Source of the DNA: Candidatus Kapaibacterium sp.
GTDB taxonomy: Bacteria; Bacteroidota; Ignavibacteria; Kapaibacteriales; Kapaibacteriaceae
NCBI GenBank assembly: GCA_018882585.1
Contig: VFFB01000006.1
Location: forward strand, 1 to 55,371
DNA length: 55,371 bases
Direction of reading: 5' to 3'
The notes beneath the pieces were generated by a model. That model searched no databases and was not told the DNA's origin. It saw nothing but the letters and a program-made list of their open reading frames with translations. A program made the translations under genes and the position numbers. Below, in pieces: positions 41,291 to 48,702 of this stretch; the stretch's first letter is position 1; each line of letters opens with the position of its first letter.

Positions 41291-42151
41291 TTACGGACGG
41301 CGACCGCCAGTACCCGGGCGCACGCCCGTGGAGTCACCAGTATTGGAACCGCCACCGCGGGGACCACCAGGGCCGCCAGGGCCGACGTTCGTGGTGTCAC
41401 CGCCACCGCGGGGACCACCAGGGCCGCCAGGGCCGACGTTCGTGGTGTCACCGCCACCGCGGGGACCACCAGGGCCGCCAGGGCCGACGTTCGTGGTGTC
41501 ACCGCCACCGCGGGGACCACCAGGACCGCCAGGGCCACCTTGACTTGCCAACCAACGCTCGAGGATTGGCAGTTGCTCTGCTGACAGGACGCCGCGCAGA
41601 GCAGCGATGAATTCATCGCGGCACTTCTTGGCAGCCTCGGCAGCAGCCTTGCGGGCATCGCCGTTGGCGCGCAGCGCCTCGCGAGCAGCCTTGTTGATGT
41701 CGGCCAGAGCAGCACGAGCTTCGTCGCGCGACATCTCGCCGTTCTTGACCTTCTTGCGGATCTCATCGCGCTGGGCGTTGAACGGAGCCAGGATCTCGCG
41801 CTCGGACTTGCGCAGGTCGCCCATGGCTGCCTTCATGCAATCTTCGTGGGCGGCAAGCAGACCCTTGACAGTTTCCTGCTGCTCGGGCGTAAGCTTGAGT
41901 GCTTGCAGCAGCGGACCGAACGGCGTACGGCGCATGTCACTGCCCGGACGCTCAACGGCCATCGGCTCGTCAAATGTTGCTTCGTAGAAAATGCCGGTTT
42001 CCATTTCCGGCGCGGGAAGCGTTGCGCTCTTGAGCGACAACGGCATGTCATCGGCAGGCGTTGTTGCCTCGCTGCATCCAACAAGGCCAACCGAACCGAC
42101 GGCAATAATCGCGGCGCCAAAGAGGCCCGACATCATGCTGCGCATGTTCAT
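41291..42151 (-). CDS. Spy/LTXXQ-like lipoprotein with Gly-Pro-rich repeat tail (paralog 1)
   Basis: This 286-residue predicted lipoprotein has lipobox LVGC (Cys26). A central helical domain (about 70-195) has LKLTPEQQETVKGLLAAHED and EMSRDEARAALADINKAARE, resembling the LTXXQ repeats of Spy/CpxP-type periplasmic chaperones and metal-resistance proteins. A Cys pair (about Cys93 and Cys167) is conserved in paralog 2. The C-terminal about 80 residues are a Gly/Pro/Arg repeat made of a 17-residue unit. The start at 42151 has GAGGAG at 7-nt spacing. Its neighbour at 42365-43165 is a clear paralog. Confidence 0.85.
   Translation of the reverse strand: MNMRSMMSGLFGAAIIAVGSVGLVGCSEATTPADDMPLSLKSATLPAPEMETGIFYEATFDEPMAVERPGSDMRRTPFGPLLQALKLTPEQQETVKGLLAAHEDCMKAAMGDLRKSEREILAPFNAQRDEIRKKVKNGEMSRDEARAALADINKAAREALRANGDARKAAAEAAKKCRDEFIAALRGVLSAEQLPILERWLASQGGPGGPGGPRGGGDTTNVGPGGPGGPRGGGDTTNVGPGGPGGPRGGGDTTNVGPGGPGGPRGGGSNTGDSTGVRPGTGGRRP
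41351..41536 (-). repeat. 51-bp coding tandem repeat (VNTR)
   Basis: Three identical 51-bp units (from 41351, 41402 and 41453) are followed by a partial fourth (41504-41536, one mismatch). Each unit encodes 17 residues of the type VGPGGPGGPRGGGDTTN. Unit length is a multiple of three, so slippage changes protein length without breaking the frame. Confidence 0.97.
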
Positions 42152-42236
42152 GAGAAAACTCCTCGAAATGAGTTGTAATGATGAGTTGTTGCCATCCATG
42201 GTGTGTAGCGCGACCTCTGACGGTTCGCGATCTTGA

Positions 42237-42364: not shown

Positions 42365-43165
42365 TCATCCGCGAGTGTTGGGATTGGTATTCGTCGTGTC
42401 GCTGCCCGAGCCGGTGCCCGTGGAATCATTGTCGTGATGACCGCGTCCGTCGTGACCCTTGCCACCTTTGTCGCCGTGATCGGGTCGGTCGCCCTTACCG
42501 GGACCCTTACCACCCTTATCACCATGTCGGTCGCCCTTGCCGGGACCGAAGGCGCTTGGATCGGCAATCCATTGATCAAGGATGGCAGATTGTTCCGGCG
42601 TCAGCAGGGCACGGAGTGCGGCCAGGAAGCTATCGCGGCATGCTTGCATGGCAGCCTTTGCTGCTTCGCGCTCGGGGTTATTCTTGAGGGCTTCGCGGGC
42701 CGCTGCATTGATCTCGCCGATCAGAGCGCGAGCTTCCTCACGCGTGATCTCTCCGGCGGCAAGCTTGGCCTTCACTTCGTCACGTTGTGCCTTGAAGGGC
42801 TCCATCAGAGCCTGTTCCGAGGCGCGCAGGGCATCGCGAACAGCCTTGGCGCAATCCTCGTGCTGTGCCAGCAGATCTTTCACCGCTGTCTGTTGTTCTG
42901 CCGTCAGGTTCAGCGCCTTGAGCAGTCCGCCAAAGTTCTGACGCTTGCGGTCGCCCGCAGGGCGCTCAAGCTGCATCGGCATGTCGATCGTTGCGTCATT
43001 CACAACGGCTTCTTCAACGTCGAGTGCCGGAATGGTGGCCGTAGCCAGTGCCATCGGCATGTCATCGGCCGGAGCAACGGCTTCGCTGCATCCAACCAGG
43101 CCAAAGGATCCAAACGCGATCAGGGCAGCTCCAAGCAGGCCCATCATCATCTTGCGCGTCTTCAT
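42365..43165 (-). CDS. Spy/LTXXQ-like lipoprotein with Gly/Lys/Asp/His tail (paralog 2)
   Basis: This 266-residue predicted lipoprotein aligns with paralog 1 from the first residues (lipobox LVGC, Cys26, then SEAVAPADDMP). It shares the helical domain with LNLTAEQQTAVKDLLAQHED and EITREEARALIGEINAAARE. The tail differs: after about residue 195 it becomes rich in Gly, Lys, Asp and His (GPGKGDRHGDKGGK repeated imperfectly, then GHDGRGHHDND), a plausible divalent-metal-binding segment. The start has GGAG at 5-nt spacing. It is followed by its own terminator, so the two paralogs are separate units with similar upstream elements. Confidence 0.85.
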   Translation of the reverse strand: MKTRKMMMGLLGAALIAFGSFGLVGCSEAVAPADDMPMALATATIPALDVEEAVVNDATIDMPMQLERPAGDRKRQNFGGLLKALNLTAEQQTAVKDLLAQHEDCAKAVRDALRASEQALMEPFKAQRDEVKAKLAAGEITREEARALIGEINAAAREALKNNPEREAAKAAMQACRDSFLAALRALLTPEQSAILDQWIADPSAFGPGKGDRHGDKGGKGPGKGDRPDHGDKGGKGHDGRGHHDNDSTGTGSGSDTTNTNPNTRG

Positions 43166-43222: not shown

Positions 43223-45274
43223 GTGGCGCCTTTGCAACAACAAACCATCGCTACGACATTGGTTACACGGATCATCGCCCTCCTATGCTGCACGATCGTC
43301 GCACATGCACAGACGGCCCGCGATCATGCCGTCGAGTTGCGCACGTCAGCCACCGACAACGGTTTCCGTATCGAGGTTGATGGCGCCCGGTCAACATCAA
43401 CGACTCGGGTCAGCATCAGGGGGCTTGGTGCCTACGACTGGATCGACGTACCGTTGCCCGAAGGAAACACGGGCATCGATGTTGGCCGTGCTGATGGCAC
43501 GACGGAGGTTCGATGGCTGATCGACCGCACAGACACGGCTGGCAAGGCCGTACCGGCCGACGGGTACGCAATGATCCGCACGGCCGATGATGCGAACGGC
43601 AAGCGTCGCGTATTGCTTATCGCTGACACGCAGGCTGCCGATGCACTTGAGGACGTCCTTGCACGCTATCGCGATGATCTTCGACGCGAAGGCTGGAGTA
43701 CCGAACTCGCCACTGTGCCACCGTCGCGGCATCACGCGCAGGCGCCGCAGATCCGCTCGTTGATCCGCGAGGTCTATCAACGCCCCCTAGATATACCACT
43801 GTCGCATGTCATCCTGATCGGTGCCATCCCAATACCGTATTCAGGTGGATTTTCTGTGCTAGGGACGTATCCCCCGCCCGACGGACACGAGGGACACGGC
43901 GGTGCGTGGGCGTCCGACTGCTACTATGCGGATATGGAGATCGCTGCCGGCATCGACGCAGCCGGCGCGTGGACAGACGCCGAGGTTGACATTGCCGACA
44001 GCGCTACGGCCTACTGGGAGAGGAACGTGAACGTTCCGGGTGACGGGAAATTCGATCAATGCGTGATCCCCTCTGACGTTGAACTTGCCATCGGACGCGT
44101 CGACATGGCGGACATGCCTGCCTTTGGCACCATGGCGGACGATCGCCGTCGCGAGTTCGAGTTGCTGCGGCGCTACTTCGACAAAAATCACCGATACCGC
44201 ACGCAAGGCCGGAACATCCCTTTGCGGGCCCTTATCGACGACAACTTTCATGGCTTCATTTACGAGGAGGGTGGGGCCCGCATCCACGAGGCATTCGCTG
44301 CCAGCGCCTGGCGGTCATGGTCGTCCGCGGTCGACACCTTCGTTGTTGGCGACTGGGTCCCGGAAACACCAACACGTGCTTCACTCGATACGATGCAATG
44401 CCTACTGTCCTATGCCTGCGGCGGCGGCGGCTTTGAACATTGCAGTTACGTGGCCACAACGCAGGACCTTGTGCAACAACCGCTGCGGGCGCCGATCACC
44501 TTGCTGTTCGGCAGTTACTTCGGCGACGTTGCGGCAAGGAACAACATCATGCGGGCTGTGATCGCTGCCGACGGCGATGCCTTGGCCTGCGGTTGGTCTG
44601 GACGTCCCCACTGGTTCCTGCACACCCTTGCCGCCGGTGAAACCATCGGCGACTGTCTTGTGCGCACGCAGAATAACGCCGGCGAGTATCGAGGAGCTGC
44701 CAAGGTCTCATCCGACGACGCTACGATCTCCGCCTTCGATGCATACCGTCGTGGAGTGCATATCCAGCTCGTAGGCGATCCGACCCTGCGGTTGCCGGGG
44801 CCTGCAATGCCATCGCTTGCCGTGCAACGCGTCGACGATGCGTCCGGCAACGCTGTTGACGTCGAGATAACATGCCCTGACAGCGCCAAGGTTGTGATCG
44901 AGCAAGGTCCAACCGCAGACGGACCATGGACAGACGCGGCAGCGGTCGATCTTGGCCCTGGCGAACGTCGCATCGTCAGACTTTCCGTTTCGACCCAAGC
45001 CGGCCTGTTGCGCGCGCGGCCCTATCGCGCGGCCGATGTCCGCGGCAGCCGCCTTTGGACAAACATCTGGGGACGCGGAACGCTTACTGCCTTCGGTCCG
45101 GCGACAGGCGTCTGCGACGTGCTTCCCGACAACCTTGGTTGCCTCCAGGACCTGCACTGGTTCGACCTCATGGGACGGCCCATCAGCGCACCACGCAACA
45201 ACGGCTCCGCCGGAACCTACCTATGGCGTTCCGGAGCGGCCTCCGGCATCAGCGTGTTCGGGTTCGGTCGATAA
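43223..45274 (+). CDS. Gingipain (C25)-like secreted protein lacking the catalytic His/Cys
   Basis: This exported protein (about 683 residues) shows the layout of peptidase family C25. It has VLLIADTQAADALEDVL (about 131-147), SHVILIGAIPIPYSGG (about 194-209) and a caspase-like second subdomain. In gingipain R the catalytic residues lie in NYTGHGSE and ACVNGDF. Here the aligned segments are SYACGGGGFE (around residues 396-405) and FGSYFGDV (Ser431), so both His and Cys are missing. The C-terminus is short and only weakly T9SS-like. The start is uncertain: GTG 43223 has AAAAGG upstream, but TTG 43259 gives a tighter signal peptide. It is divergent from lipoprotein paralog 2 and precedes the subtilase. 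Confidence 0.75.
   Translation: MAPLQQQTIATTLVTRIIALLCCTIVAHAQTARDHAVELRTSATDNGFRIEVDGARSTSTTRVSIRGLGAYDWIDVPLPEGNTGIDVGRADGTTEVRWLIDRTDTAGKAVPADGYAMIRTADDANGKRRVLLIADTQAADALEDVLARYRDDLRREGWSTELATVPPSRHHAQAPQIRSLIREVYQRPLDIPLSHVILIGAIPIPYSGGFSVLGTYPPPDGHEGHGGAWASDCYYADMEIAAGIDAAGAWTDAEVDIADSATAYWERNVNVPGDGKFDQCVIPSDVELAIGRVDMADMPAFGTMADDRRREFELLRRYFDKNHRYRTQGRNIPLRALIDDNFHGFIYEEGGARIHEAFAASAWRSWSSAVDTFVVGDWVPETPTRASLDTMQCLLSYACGGGGFEHCSYVATTQDLVQQPLRAPITLLFGSYFGDVAARNNIMRAVIAADGDALACGWSGRPHWFLHTLAAGETIGDCLVRTQNNAGEYRGAAKVSSDDATISAFDAYRRGVHIQLVGDPTLRLPGPAMPSLAVQRVDDASGNAVDVEITCPDSAKVVIEQGPTADGPWTDAAAVDLGPGERRIVRLSVSTQAGLLRARPYRAADVRGSRLWTNIWGRGTLTAFGPATGVCDVLPDNLGCLQDLHWFDLMGRPISAPRNNGSAGTYLWRSGAASGISVFGFGR
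43239..43272 (-). promoter_or_regulatory. Shared upstream element of lipoprotein paralog 2
   Basis: AACAAACCATCG (43239-43250), 11 bases, then GTTACACGGAT (43262-43272) repeats the element seen upstream of paralog 1, 74 bases ahead of the paralog 2 start. It overlaps the 5' end of the gingipain-like gene if that gene starts at 43223. No exact TAnnTTTG is present here. Confidence 0.55.
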
Positions 45275-45354
45275 CGGAATCATCCGTAACATTACGTCTC
45301 TGAATTCGTCACTGACGTGCCACACATCGGTCATCGTACTTGAGAAGGATCACC

Positions 45355-48300
45355 ATGCGACTGTTCGTCCAAGCGAGCCTCGTCGTTCTCGTCGGCTGCC
45401 TTGCGGCCACCACCTCGCTTGCAAAGAGCGATGCATTCATCGTCTACATGCCGTCGAAGCAACTGGCGAACGGATATACGACCATGCCCCGCGCCATCAA
45501 GGTCACGCGTCCTGCGGAAGGCACCTATGTGCCCGGCATCGTCATCGTCAAGACACGTGCCTCGTACCGTGTGGGCAAAGGCGAGCAGACGCTTGCAAGT
45601 GCGACGTTGGCGCCCGTCCTGGACTACATGCAGACGCGCAGCGTCGAGCATGCCATGGTGCCGGCAACGAAAACGAACGAACCGGACATCGTTGCAGCCG
45701 GTATTGACCGCATCTACCGCATCGCGTATAACGAGCCCATCGAGCCGTTCGACCTCTGCAAACGCCTGATGGAAAACCCTGACGTCGAGTACGCCATGCC
45801 CGAGCGCATCTTTCAGCCGATGTATACGCCGAATGACCCGCGACTGGCAAGTCAGGGTTACCTGACGCCGATGAAAGCAGCGGCAGCATGGGACGTTACC
45901 AAGGGATCCAAAGACGTGATCGTGGCCATCGTTGATTCTGGCTTGGACTGGACCCACGAGGATCTGGCGGCGAACATCTTCTCGAACAAGAAAGAGATCG
46001 CCGGGAATGGCAAGGATGACGACGGCAACGGCTACGTCGACGATGTGCGCGGCTGGGACTTTGTTGGCAACGTAACGCTTCAGGAAGTCGCCGGCGGTAC
46101 GCTGAAGCCCGACAACGATCCGAAAGTCACGGGTAGCATCGACGACCGCAAAGGGCACGGCACAACAGTCGGCGGCTGTGCTGCCGGCATCGGCGACAAT
46201 GGAAAAGGCATTGCCGGCCTTGGATTCGGCGTAACGATCCTACCCTGTAAGATCGGCTCCGACAACTCGTCATTCGCCGGTTTGCTGCAAGGCTACCAAG
46301 CAATTCAGTATGCCGCCGACATGGGGGCCCACATCATCAACTGCAGCTGGGGTGGTCCCGGCATGGACCCGGGCGCGCAGGAGATCATTGACTATGCGAT
46401 CAGCAAGGGTTCACTCGTTGTTGCCGCTTCCGGCAATAGCGGTGTTGATACAGACCAGTTCGAGTTCACTCCCGCCTGTCTTGACGGAGTGCTAAGTGTA
46501 GGCTCGACGGACAACAATGATCGTGTAAGCAGCTTCTCGAACTACGGCTGGCGGATGACAACCTTCGCCCCTGGCCAGAGCATGCTGTCGACCTTCCCGA
46601 ACAATCAGTACCGGGCGGCCGACGGAACGTCATTCTCGTCTCCCGTCGTGTCTGGCATCTGTGCCCTTGTCAAGTCGATCCATGCAGACTGGACGCCACA
46701 GCAGATCATGGCGCAGATCCGTGGCACGAGCGATGCCATGGCAAGCGTGCCGCCACAGAACCGCCCCAAGTATTGGGGTCGCGTGAACGCCGAACGCGCC
46801 GTAAAGATCAATCGCCTGTGGACATCCGGCGAGCGCATCCCGGGACTCATCGTCTCGAACTTCCGCGTTGGCAGCGGCACGGCAATCACGAAGCGCGAAC
46901 CGACCGACGTCGTGGTCACGGTAAAGAACGTCCTTGCCGATGCTTCTACGTCAACCGTCGAGATCGCATCGCTTGATTCGCGTGTCACGATCGTTTCCGG
47001 CAGCAGCACGAATTCCGGAGCACTGCCACGCGACGGCAGCAGAGACATTACCGTACGACTGCAACCAAGTGCGAACTATCCGTGGTATGAGGCAAGTGTG
47101 CCGTTAGCCGTCACCATGCGCAGCGGAACATACAGCAACCTGCAGGTGGTGTCGATCCCGCTGCGTCTTACATCGAATAACGCGTTGGTCCTGTCAGGTA
47201 ATGCCGACGGACTCTTGTTCACCAACGCCAAGAACGTCGGAAACAGCGAGATTTGGGGCACGGCAATTGCGTCGAATGGGCAGAATGCCTGGTACCGCAT
47301 TGCGTCCGGCCGGATATCGGCCAATGCACTTTCGTTCAAGCCGGTGGCCTTCGACGCCGTTGCTGGAAAGGGCATCATTGGCGGCATGAACAGTTCGACG
47401 CCGACGATCGCCCGCTACTCCGGTGGATCGTGGCCGGCCACGAACGTCGCGGCCATCGCTTCGTCTGTCATCGGTATTCACATGCGTTCCGCCAATGAAG
47501 GTGTCTTCATCGGCGATGCCGTTACGAATCGCTTTGGCGTTGGCCGGTCCACCGATGGCGGCGTCACGTGGACTGCCTATGGAACGGCTCCGCAGATCCT
47601 GACCGGCGAGAAGCTGCGTCCGAACGTGTACTTCTTTGATGGCGACAACATGTGGTTTGTCACGACCAATAATCGCATGGGACGTTCTACCGACGGCGGC
47701 AAGACGTGGCAGATGAGCACCATGGGACTCACGGGTGCCACCCCCATTGCCGTTGCCTTCCGCGATGCCACGAACGGCCTGCTGCTGTACTCTATCAGCG
47801 GAGGGTACAAACTCGCCTCGTCGATCGATGGCGGCACGAAATGGACAGCGCTGCCGACCGACCTCAAGCCCCTCGGTGCCGATCCACTGACCATCTCGAG
47901 CTCGGGCGATCATCACCTGATCGTTTGCAAGGACGGTGCGGTGTTTGGTACGGATGACAATGGTGCGACGTATCAGCCTGTACTTTCGATGGAACAGATG
48001 CAGCCTTTGAACTCCGCCCGCGCGCAGAAGTTCACGAGTTCGACCGTTGTCTTTGCAGGACAGATGGTAACAACGCTCACGTATCGCTACAACGGGCCCA
48101 ACGGAACGAAGATCCTCGAATCAACACAGACAGCTGTCAATTTCGACACACTGACGCCGCAGCAGGGACGCAATCGCTTTGTTACCGTGCGGAGCACGGG
48201 CACCGGCACTGCCACGATCGACAGCATCAGGATCATTCCGTCGTCCGGCGTCAGCGACACAGCCTTCAAGGTCACAAACACACCCAGCACCACCATCGAG

Positions 48301-48702
48301 TCCGGCAGTTCGTCGCAGATCACCATCCGCTTCTCGGCAACGGACCCCGGCATGTACACAGCAACCCTTCGCGTGGTCAGCAATGCCACGCCATCCGTCA
48401 TCACAGTGCCCCTTACGGCCGTTGTCTCCACCCCCGTCTCAGTATTGGATGAAGGGGCAATGGAGGCCGTCGGTGTGATGCCGAATCCCACGTCGGACCG
48501 ACTGCTTGTGCGTCTTCCGGGCGACCGTGCGGCAACACTGACGCTGATCGATGTGCAAGGCCGCACAATGATCATGCGCAACACCGCTGCCGGAATGCAA
48601 GAAGCCAGCCTGGACGTTGCCGGACTGGCCTCGGGAACCTACTACGTTGTGGTAACGGGCGAAGGGCTGGCCAAGATGATGGCCGTAACGATCACCCGCT
48701 GA
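45355..48702 (+). CDS. Secreted subtilase (S8) with T9SS sorting domain
   Basis: The 1115-residue serine protease has a signal peptide (to about residue 25), an inhibitor-like prodomain (about 60-155) and an S8 domain (about 165-475) with the complete triad. Asp194 lies in AIVDSGLDWTHED, His268 in RKGHGTTVGG and Ser426 in DGTSFSSPVVSG. A calcium-loop-like GKDDDGNGYVDDVRGWDFVGN stretch is present. Beyond it lie a beta-sandwich, BNR-type repeats (RSTDGGKTW, SIDGGTKW), another sandwich and a C-terminal sorting domain (MPNPTSDRLLV; GLASGTYYVVV). The start has AGAAGGA at about 6 nt. It is likely co-transcribed with the gingipain-like gene 80 bases upstream. Confidence 0.95.
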   Translation: MRLFVQASLVVLVGCLAATTSLAKSDAFIVYMPSKQLANGYTTMPRAIKVTRPAEGTYVPGIVIVKTRASYRVGKGEQTLASATLAPVLDYMQTRSVEHAMVPATKTNEPDIVAAGIDRIYRIAYNEPIEPFDLCKRLMENPDVEYAMPERIFQPMYTPNDPRLASQGYLTPMKAAAAWDVTKGSKDVIVAIVDSGLDWTHEDLAANIFSNKKEIAGNGKDDDGNGYVDDVRGWDFVGNVTLQEVAGGTLKPDNDPKVTGSIDDRKGHGTTVGGCAAGIGDNGKGIAGLGFGVTILPCKIGSDNSSFAGLLQGYQAIQYAADMGAHIINCSWGGPGMDPGAQEIIDYAISKGSLVVAASGNSGVDTDQFEFTPACLDGVLSVGSTDNNDRVSSFSNYGWRMTTFAPGQSMLSTFPNNQYRAADGTSFSSPVVSGICALVKSIHADWTPQQIMAQIRGTSDAMASVPPQNRPKYWGRVNAERAVKINRLWTSGERIPGLIVSNFRVGSGTAITKREPTDVVVTVKNVLADASTSTVEIASLDSRVTIVSGSSTNSGALPRDGSRDITVRLQPSANYPWYEASVPLAVTMRSGTYSNLQVVSIPLRLTSNNALVLSGNADGLLFTNAKNVGNSEIWGTAIASNGQNAWYRIASGRISANALSFKPVAFDAVAGKGIIGGMNSSTPTIARYSGGSWPATNVAAIASSVIGIHMRSANEGVFIGDAVTNRFGVGRSTDGGVTWTAYGTAPQILTGEKLRPNVYFFDGDNMWFVTTNNRMGRSTDGGKTWQMSTMGLTGATPIAVAFRDATNGLLLYSISGGYKLASSIDGGTKWTALPTDLKPLGADPLTISSSGDHHLIVCKDGAVFGTDDNGATYQPVLSMEQMQPLNSARAQKFTSSTVVFAGQMVTTLTYRYNGPNGTKILESTQTAVNFDTLTPQQGRNRFVTVRSTGTGTATIDSIRIIPSSGVSDTAFKVTNTPSTTIESGSSSQITIRFSATDPGMYTATLRVVSNATPSVITVPLTAVVSTPVSVLDEGAMEAVGVMPNPTSDRLLVRLPGDRAATLTLIDVQGRTMIMRNTAAGMQEASLDVAGLASGTYYVVVTGEGLAKMMAVTITR

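Follow-up and report, generated by a model that had tools for sequence, protein, structure and literature searches.

An exported protein of Kapaibacterium with a predicted C25 fold, no catalytic dyad and a widespread family

To our knowledge, peptidase family C25 is known almost only from the gingipains and from PorU, the T9SS sortase. The gingipains RgpB and Kgp (PF01364) have an export signal, a prodomain and a two-subdomain alpha/beta core that is followed by an IgSF domain. The C-terminal subdomain of Kgp is six-stranded, and its catalytic residues are C477, H444 and D388 (PMC6426963). Replacement of a catalytic dyad of this type is already known in clan CD from the pseudo-orthocaspases (C14), conserved clades in which His is changed to Tyr and Cys to Ser, with Tyr-Ser as the common dyad (PMC6426788).

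We analysed a window of 55,371 nucleotides from Candidatus Kapaibacterium sp. that encodes a dyad-less exoprotein with a predicted C25 fold. The protein shares with RgpB and Kgp the two-subdomain fold, the strand order, the GDPTLR signature and the export signal, and its Ig/FN3-like domain after the core is comparable to the gingipain IgSF domain. Unlike in the gingipains, the catalytic His and Cys are replaced, the protein falls below the Pfam threshold, an FN3-like domain stands where the prodomain would be, and the dyad-less family has an acidic insertion of about 35 residues before the VGRVD strand. PorU has the same fold but is roughly twice the length of the window protein, which has no dyad and forms a third, separate lineage in a genome whose PorU-like C25 protein with intact dyad is encoded by another gene (L001). 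The pseudo-orthocaspases also have the clan CD fold and a Cys-to-Ser change; they carry a p20 domain, whereas the protein here has Gly in place of His, is exported and contains FN3 domains. Our literature searches, which are no proof of absence, found no published description of a dyad-less family on the C25 side, and the family is apparently undescribed.

Gene, domains and predicted fold

The gene (43223..45274, forward strand, as are all features of the protein below) encodes 683 amino acids if the GTG start is assumed. It is a real gene, since 94 of 123 genomes in the order carry homologues, frequently a pair of paralogues, and gene order around it is kept within the same family. Residues 2-27 form a hydrophobic helix in the AlphaFold2 model and are followed by an AHAQ site, which suggests a signal peptide of residues 1-30 (43223..43312) with putative cleavage between IVAHAQ and TARD. 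The next domain, a beta domain of approximately residues 31-118 (43313..43576), is delineated by predicted strands, is conserved in the alignment and gives weak fn3 matches in relatives. The C25-like core (residues 127-524, 43601..44794) comprises, according to AlphaFold2 and Foldseek, an N-terminal four-stranded and a C-terminal six-stranded alpha/beta subdomain and ends in LVGD519PTLRL (44768..44794), recognised from alignments as the C-terminal strand signature of C25. The Ig/FN3-like beta domain (approximately residues 531-605, 44813..45037) is predicted by AlphaFold2 and by profile matches to FN3 chains. The C-terminal tail (45050..45271) is a degenerate sorting-domain-like stretch (DLMGRPI...GTYLWR) with no match to a T9SS CTD profile.

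Searched as a single sequence, the window protein has no convincing match in Pfam, NCBIfam or PDB sequences. Its assignment to C25 in the first-pass annotation is echoed in Pfam by its relatives alone: the window protein does not reach the curated cut-off of Peptidase_C25 (PF01364), whereas 31 of 65 full-length relatives match the profile at E up to 1 (best 6.9e-9) and at least one (L102) exceeds the cut-off, with 24.3 bits against 23. Searching the PDB with the family profile retrieved mostly FN3 and sorting-domain chains and did not find the C25 catalytic domain. Predicted structures point to C25. The AlphaFold2 model of the window protein, built from 65 aligned sequences (pLDDT 83.9, pTM 0.85), has RgpB and Kgp as its four best PDB matches in Foldseek (prob 1.00, E 5.1e-12 to 1.7e-10). 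The core of a planctomycete relative, modelled from an alignment that overlaps with the first but differs from it (pLDDT 92.3, pTM 0.91), likewise leads to RgpB (E 1.6e-9). The predicted strands are arranged as in C25: the N-terminal subdomain has four of them and the C-terminal subdomain six. We conclude that the protein is predicted to have the two-subdomain C25 (gingipain/PorU) fold, as had been proposed from the sequence by eye.

The former catalytic sites and their conservation

The first-pass annotation had read SYACGGGGFE and FGSYFGDV as remnants of the two catalytic segments, with His and Cys replaced between recognisable strands. Both segments are present in the ORF translation (residues 396-405 and 429-436), and Ser431 had been numbered correctly. 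In the predicted C-terminal subdomain, strands 393-399 and 423-429 precede the Gly-rich loop and Ser431, respectively; the loop thus follows strand 7 and the serine strand 8, which are the C25 positions of His and Cys. The former His site is Y397-A-C-G-G-G402 (44411..44428), located from the alignment and predicted strands, and the former Cys site is F-G-S431-Y-F-G-D-V (44507..44530).

The register is best defined by a C25-like family that links the gingipains to the dyad-less family. This bridging family (L212:2662-4917 and L270-L280) occurs in Bacteroidota and carries C-terminal HEAT repeats; the Pfam Peptidase_C25 profile does not detect its member L212. It has detectable sequence homology with the dyad-less family across the core, but keeps HHHG and DACYNGSF, and no FN3 domain or sorting tail was noted in it. 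In hhalign, APITLLFGSYFGDV of the bridging family aligns with ARFVMFDACYNGSF of the dyad-less family (Prob 91.9, E 7e-7), and DACYNGSF pairs with FGSYFGDV, so that Ser431 occupies the position of the catalytic Cys. An alignment by eye over 38 residues runs without gaps, and the bridging family aligns with PorU Cys on Cys (Prob 75). A weak profile comparison with PorU only (Prob 5) also places Ser431 on Cys, and Gly400 on His.

The catalytic His is absent: between residues 341 and 452, even the alignment column richest in His has this residue in at most 11 of the 150 members. A long insertion on the His side of the bridging family makes it uncertain whether Gly400 or Gly401 stands in for the His. 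Gly402, present in 148 of 150 members, falls by hand alignment with Kgp as a guide at the expected place of the oxyanion-hole Gly that follows His. The reading of both catalytic residues as replaced therefore holds, with His giving way to Gly400 or Gly401 and Cys to Ser431. What had been taken for a local pseudo-gingipain proved to be one case of a replacement that is fixed in a large family.

Conservation was assessed in 150 non-redundant members (<90% identity). Ser431, Asp220, His222, Tyr235, Asp274 and Arg292 are invariant in all 150, as is G200, and members that have the GDP signature always keep its GD. Conservation of Ser431 and of the Gly cluster had been proposed as a check; the serine is fully conserved, but the cluster is kept less strictly (Cys399 in 122 and Gly401 in 94 of 149 members). 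Asp220-x-His222, distant from the Gly cluster, had gone unnoticed. It lies in the loop P-D220-x-H222-xx-H225-xGAW-xx-D232-x-Y-Y235 (43877..43930). The family-specific insertion includes N270-x-P-G-D274-G-K276-F-D278 (44030..44056), an acidic segment that possibly binds metal. Asp340 is kept in 129 and His467 in 125 of 149 members. Divergent members drop the SYFGDWD motif and H225-GAW yet retain Ser431 and Asp220-x-His222. With the cysteine position occupied by an invariant serine throughout the family, the former active-site region seems to be under selection still.

Covariation is suggestive of a contact between the loops of the two subdomains. By APC-corrected mutual information in a small sample (Neff ~105), the pairs 225-434, 225-435, 229-434/435 and 227-434 rank 16-38 of ~60,000, and other top pairs, among them 145-316 and 152-323, resemble genuine helix contacts. 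Phylogeny can also produce this signal, since in divergent clades loss of H225 goes hand in hand with changes at G434/D435.

Family spread and genomic setting

A genome-wide scan with the single window protein found no relatives, and an alignment was needed. The alignment-based scan of GTDB genomes recovered 534 relatives from at least six phyla, the best of which are from Kapabacteria, Saprospiraceae, Chitinophagales, Planctomycetota, Verrucomicrobiota, Lentisphaerota, Acidobacteriota and Spirochaetes. Members also occur in Pseudomonadota. Some are annotated as 'peptidase C25' and others as 'hypothetical protein', the latter including divergent members on Roseobacter and Methylomagnum plasmids. 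On the Roseobacter plasmids pTB2 and pROLI127 (L217:11755-13665 and L219:9752-11668), the divergent member directly follows a PAPS-forming sulfate adenylyltransferase/kinase gene and lies near exosortase xrtD and polysaccharide genes, an arrangement that suggests a surface-polysaccharide context without T9SS. The pTB2 gene is RD1_RS20115 of Roseobacter denitrificans.

The window genome likely has a T9SS, as it encodes a SprA-type protein (7.4e-251) and the PorU-like C25 protein L001. Two C25 proteins with intact motifs are encoded in all, and the second of them carries YACQTGAF. A T9SS sorting domain was matched in 43 of 65 full-length relatives. No Por_Secre_tail or T9SS sorting domain was detected in the window protein, whose tail is degenerate, or in eight of the other nine members of its clade. 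The second dyad-less paralogue of the genome (G000:C133:8874-9980; also L033 and L192) is of the canonical type, with YGCGGGT, FGSYFGDW and a FlgD_ig/sorting-like tail; its APC transporter neighbours were judged irrelevant.

Directly downstream of the window gene lies an S8 subtilase gene (45340..48702, forward strand) whose product keeps its Asp/His/Ser motifs intact and carries a T9SS sorting tail. The order of an LTXXQ-like gene, the dyad-less C25 gene, the S8 subtilase and housekeeping genes is kept in 9/9 same-family loci examined, some of which contain gaps and one of which has the S8 gene cut by the contig end. The LTXXQ/metal-resistance-like exported protein of the window (41291-42199, reverse strand) has tandem PGGPGGPRGGGDTTNV repeats at its C-terminus and a paralogue beside it at 42365-43165. 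The subtilase neighbour, which the first-pass annotation had mentioned, adjoins the gene in a single clade of 10 genomes (support 1.0, long stem) and was not found outside it in the loci searched. Within this clade both proteins evolve fast, at ~37-46% identity compared with ~90% for GroEL. In another family of the order (L045, L052), the dyad-less C25 gene is present as two tandem copies in divergent orientation next to the same MlaE gene; the chromosomal site therefore looks ancestral, and the subtilase partner may be newer.

Possible functions of the rebuilt cleft

As the Cys-His dyad is lost, the standard mechanism of a C25 cysteine peptidase is not available to the protein. The explanation we favour, and hold to be reasonably probable, is that of an exported C25-fold protein whose cleft was rebuilt around Ser431 and handles an extracellular ligand or substrate. 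The new cleft would consist of the S431-x-x-G-D loop, the Gly-rich loop that replaces the His loop, and, contributed by the N-terminal subdomain and specific to the family, the D220-x-H222-x-x-H225 loop with the acidic insertion. Ser431 and Asp220-x-His222 would lie together in it. Such a site would be functional, and handling of an extracellular ligand or substrate is its most likely activity. The conservation pattern argues against simple loss, because Ser431 is invariant, Gly402 retained, Asp340 mostly retained and the Asp-x-His newly invariant. We infer that cutting, with Ser as nucleophile and His222 as base, and binding only are about equally likely. The invariant Asp and His could alternatively bind a structural metal, as happens in gingipains, instead of a ligand. 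In the window clade the protein probably works side by side with the neighbouring secreted subtilase, a partnership that is not a family trait.

More specifically, the protein may be a serine hydrolase with Ser431 as the nucleophile, Gly402 and the Ser431 amide as the oxyanion hole, and His222 as a relocated base backed by Asp220, although we consider this unlikely. A Ser-based enzyme had been among the options raised in the first-pass annotation. Ser431, His222 and Asp220 form an invariant Ser-His-Asp set. No polar residue is more conserved (150/150 each), and they persist where the flanking motifs are lost, for example in Roseobacter, Methylomagnum and Verrucomicrobiota members. Gly402 (148/150) and Asp340 (129/149) stand where the oxyanion Gly and the third residue of the Kgp triad would be expected, and the covariation between the two loops fits as well. 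However, the many conserved acidic residues in the vicinity point to metal binding instead, and clan CD Cys-to-Ser variants with His lost are regarded as presumably inactive, as in pseudo-orthocaspases (PMC6426788). His467 as the new base was ranked down as it is not invariant (125/149). That the whole family turned from cysteine peptidases into serine hydrolases, with the Asp220-x-His222 base drawn from the other subdomain to form a relocated clan CD site, is a tentative and rather unlikely extension.

A non-catalytic pseudo-peptidase that serves as a binding or scaffold protein at the surface or in the periplasm, and in the window clade chaperones, anchors or restrains the subtilase, is likewise possible but doubtful. 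It would agree with the loss of the dyad, with the strict S8 adjacency and fast evolution of both proteins in the window clade, and with the precedent of the pseudo-orthocaspases (PMC6426788). Yet the loci searched outside the clade have no S8 neighbour, and a function devoted to the subtilase therefore cannot account for residues that are invariant throughout the family; the N-terminal region of the S8 protein reads by eye like its own propeptide. As S8 neighbours are not a feature of the family as a whole, we gave little weight to inhibition of the subtilase.

It is improbable that the family has kept a cysteine peptidase in another register, with Cys399 of YGCGGGSY catalytic and LFGSYFGD as the next strand. 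A profile combining PorU with a second C25 family does align this way, with Cys399 on the catalytic Cys (Prob 58.6, E 9.5e-5), and YGCGGGSY resembles the YACQTGAF of the second C25 protein of the genome. The score of this comparison (41.6, whereas none of 20 shuffled controls exceeded 23.3) indicates that the homology is real but does not settle the register. The bridging family, the strand order and the PorU-only comparison all place Ser431 on Cys, 27 of 149 members lack Cys399, and there is no conserved His partner upstream; we thus rejected the Cys399 register. Functionless decay of a former peptidase, for which the loss of both catalytic residues and of a recognisable sorting tail in a fast-evolving clade could speak, is hardly credible given the open frame, the position kept in 9/9 same-family loci examined, and the invariant residues that the window protein shares with members from other phyla.

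The dyad-less family is a widespread sister family with an invariant Ser and Asp-x-His that risks misannotation as protease in Bacteroidota and PVC genomes, and it is also found in bacteria that are not expected to have a T9SS. If its members are catalytic, they would represent a rare nucleophile switch combined with relocation of the base inside one fold. If they are not, they would constitute a large secreted pseudo-peptidase family, the counterpart of the pseudo-orthocaspases.
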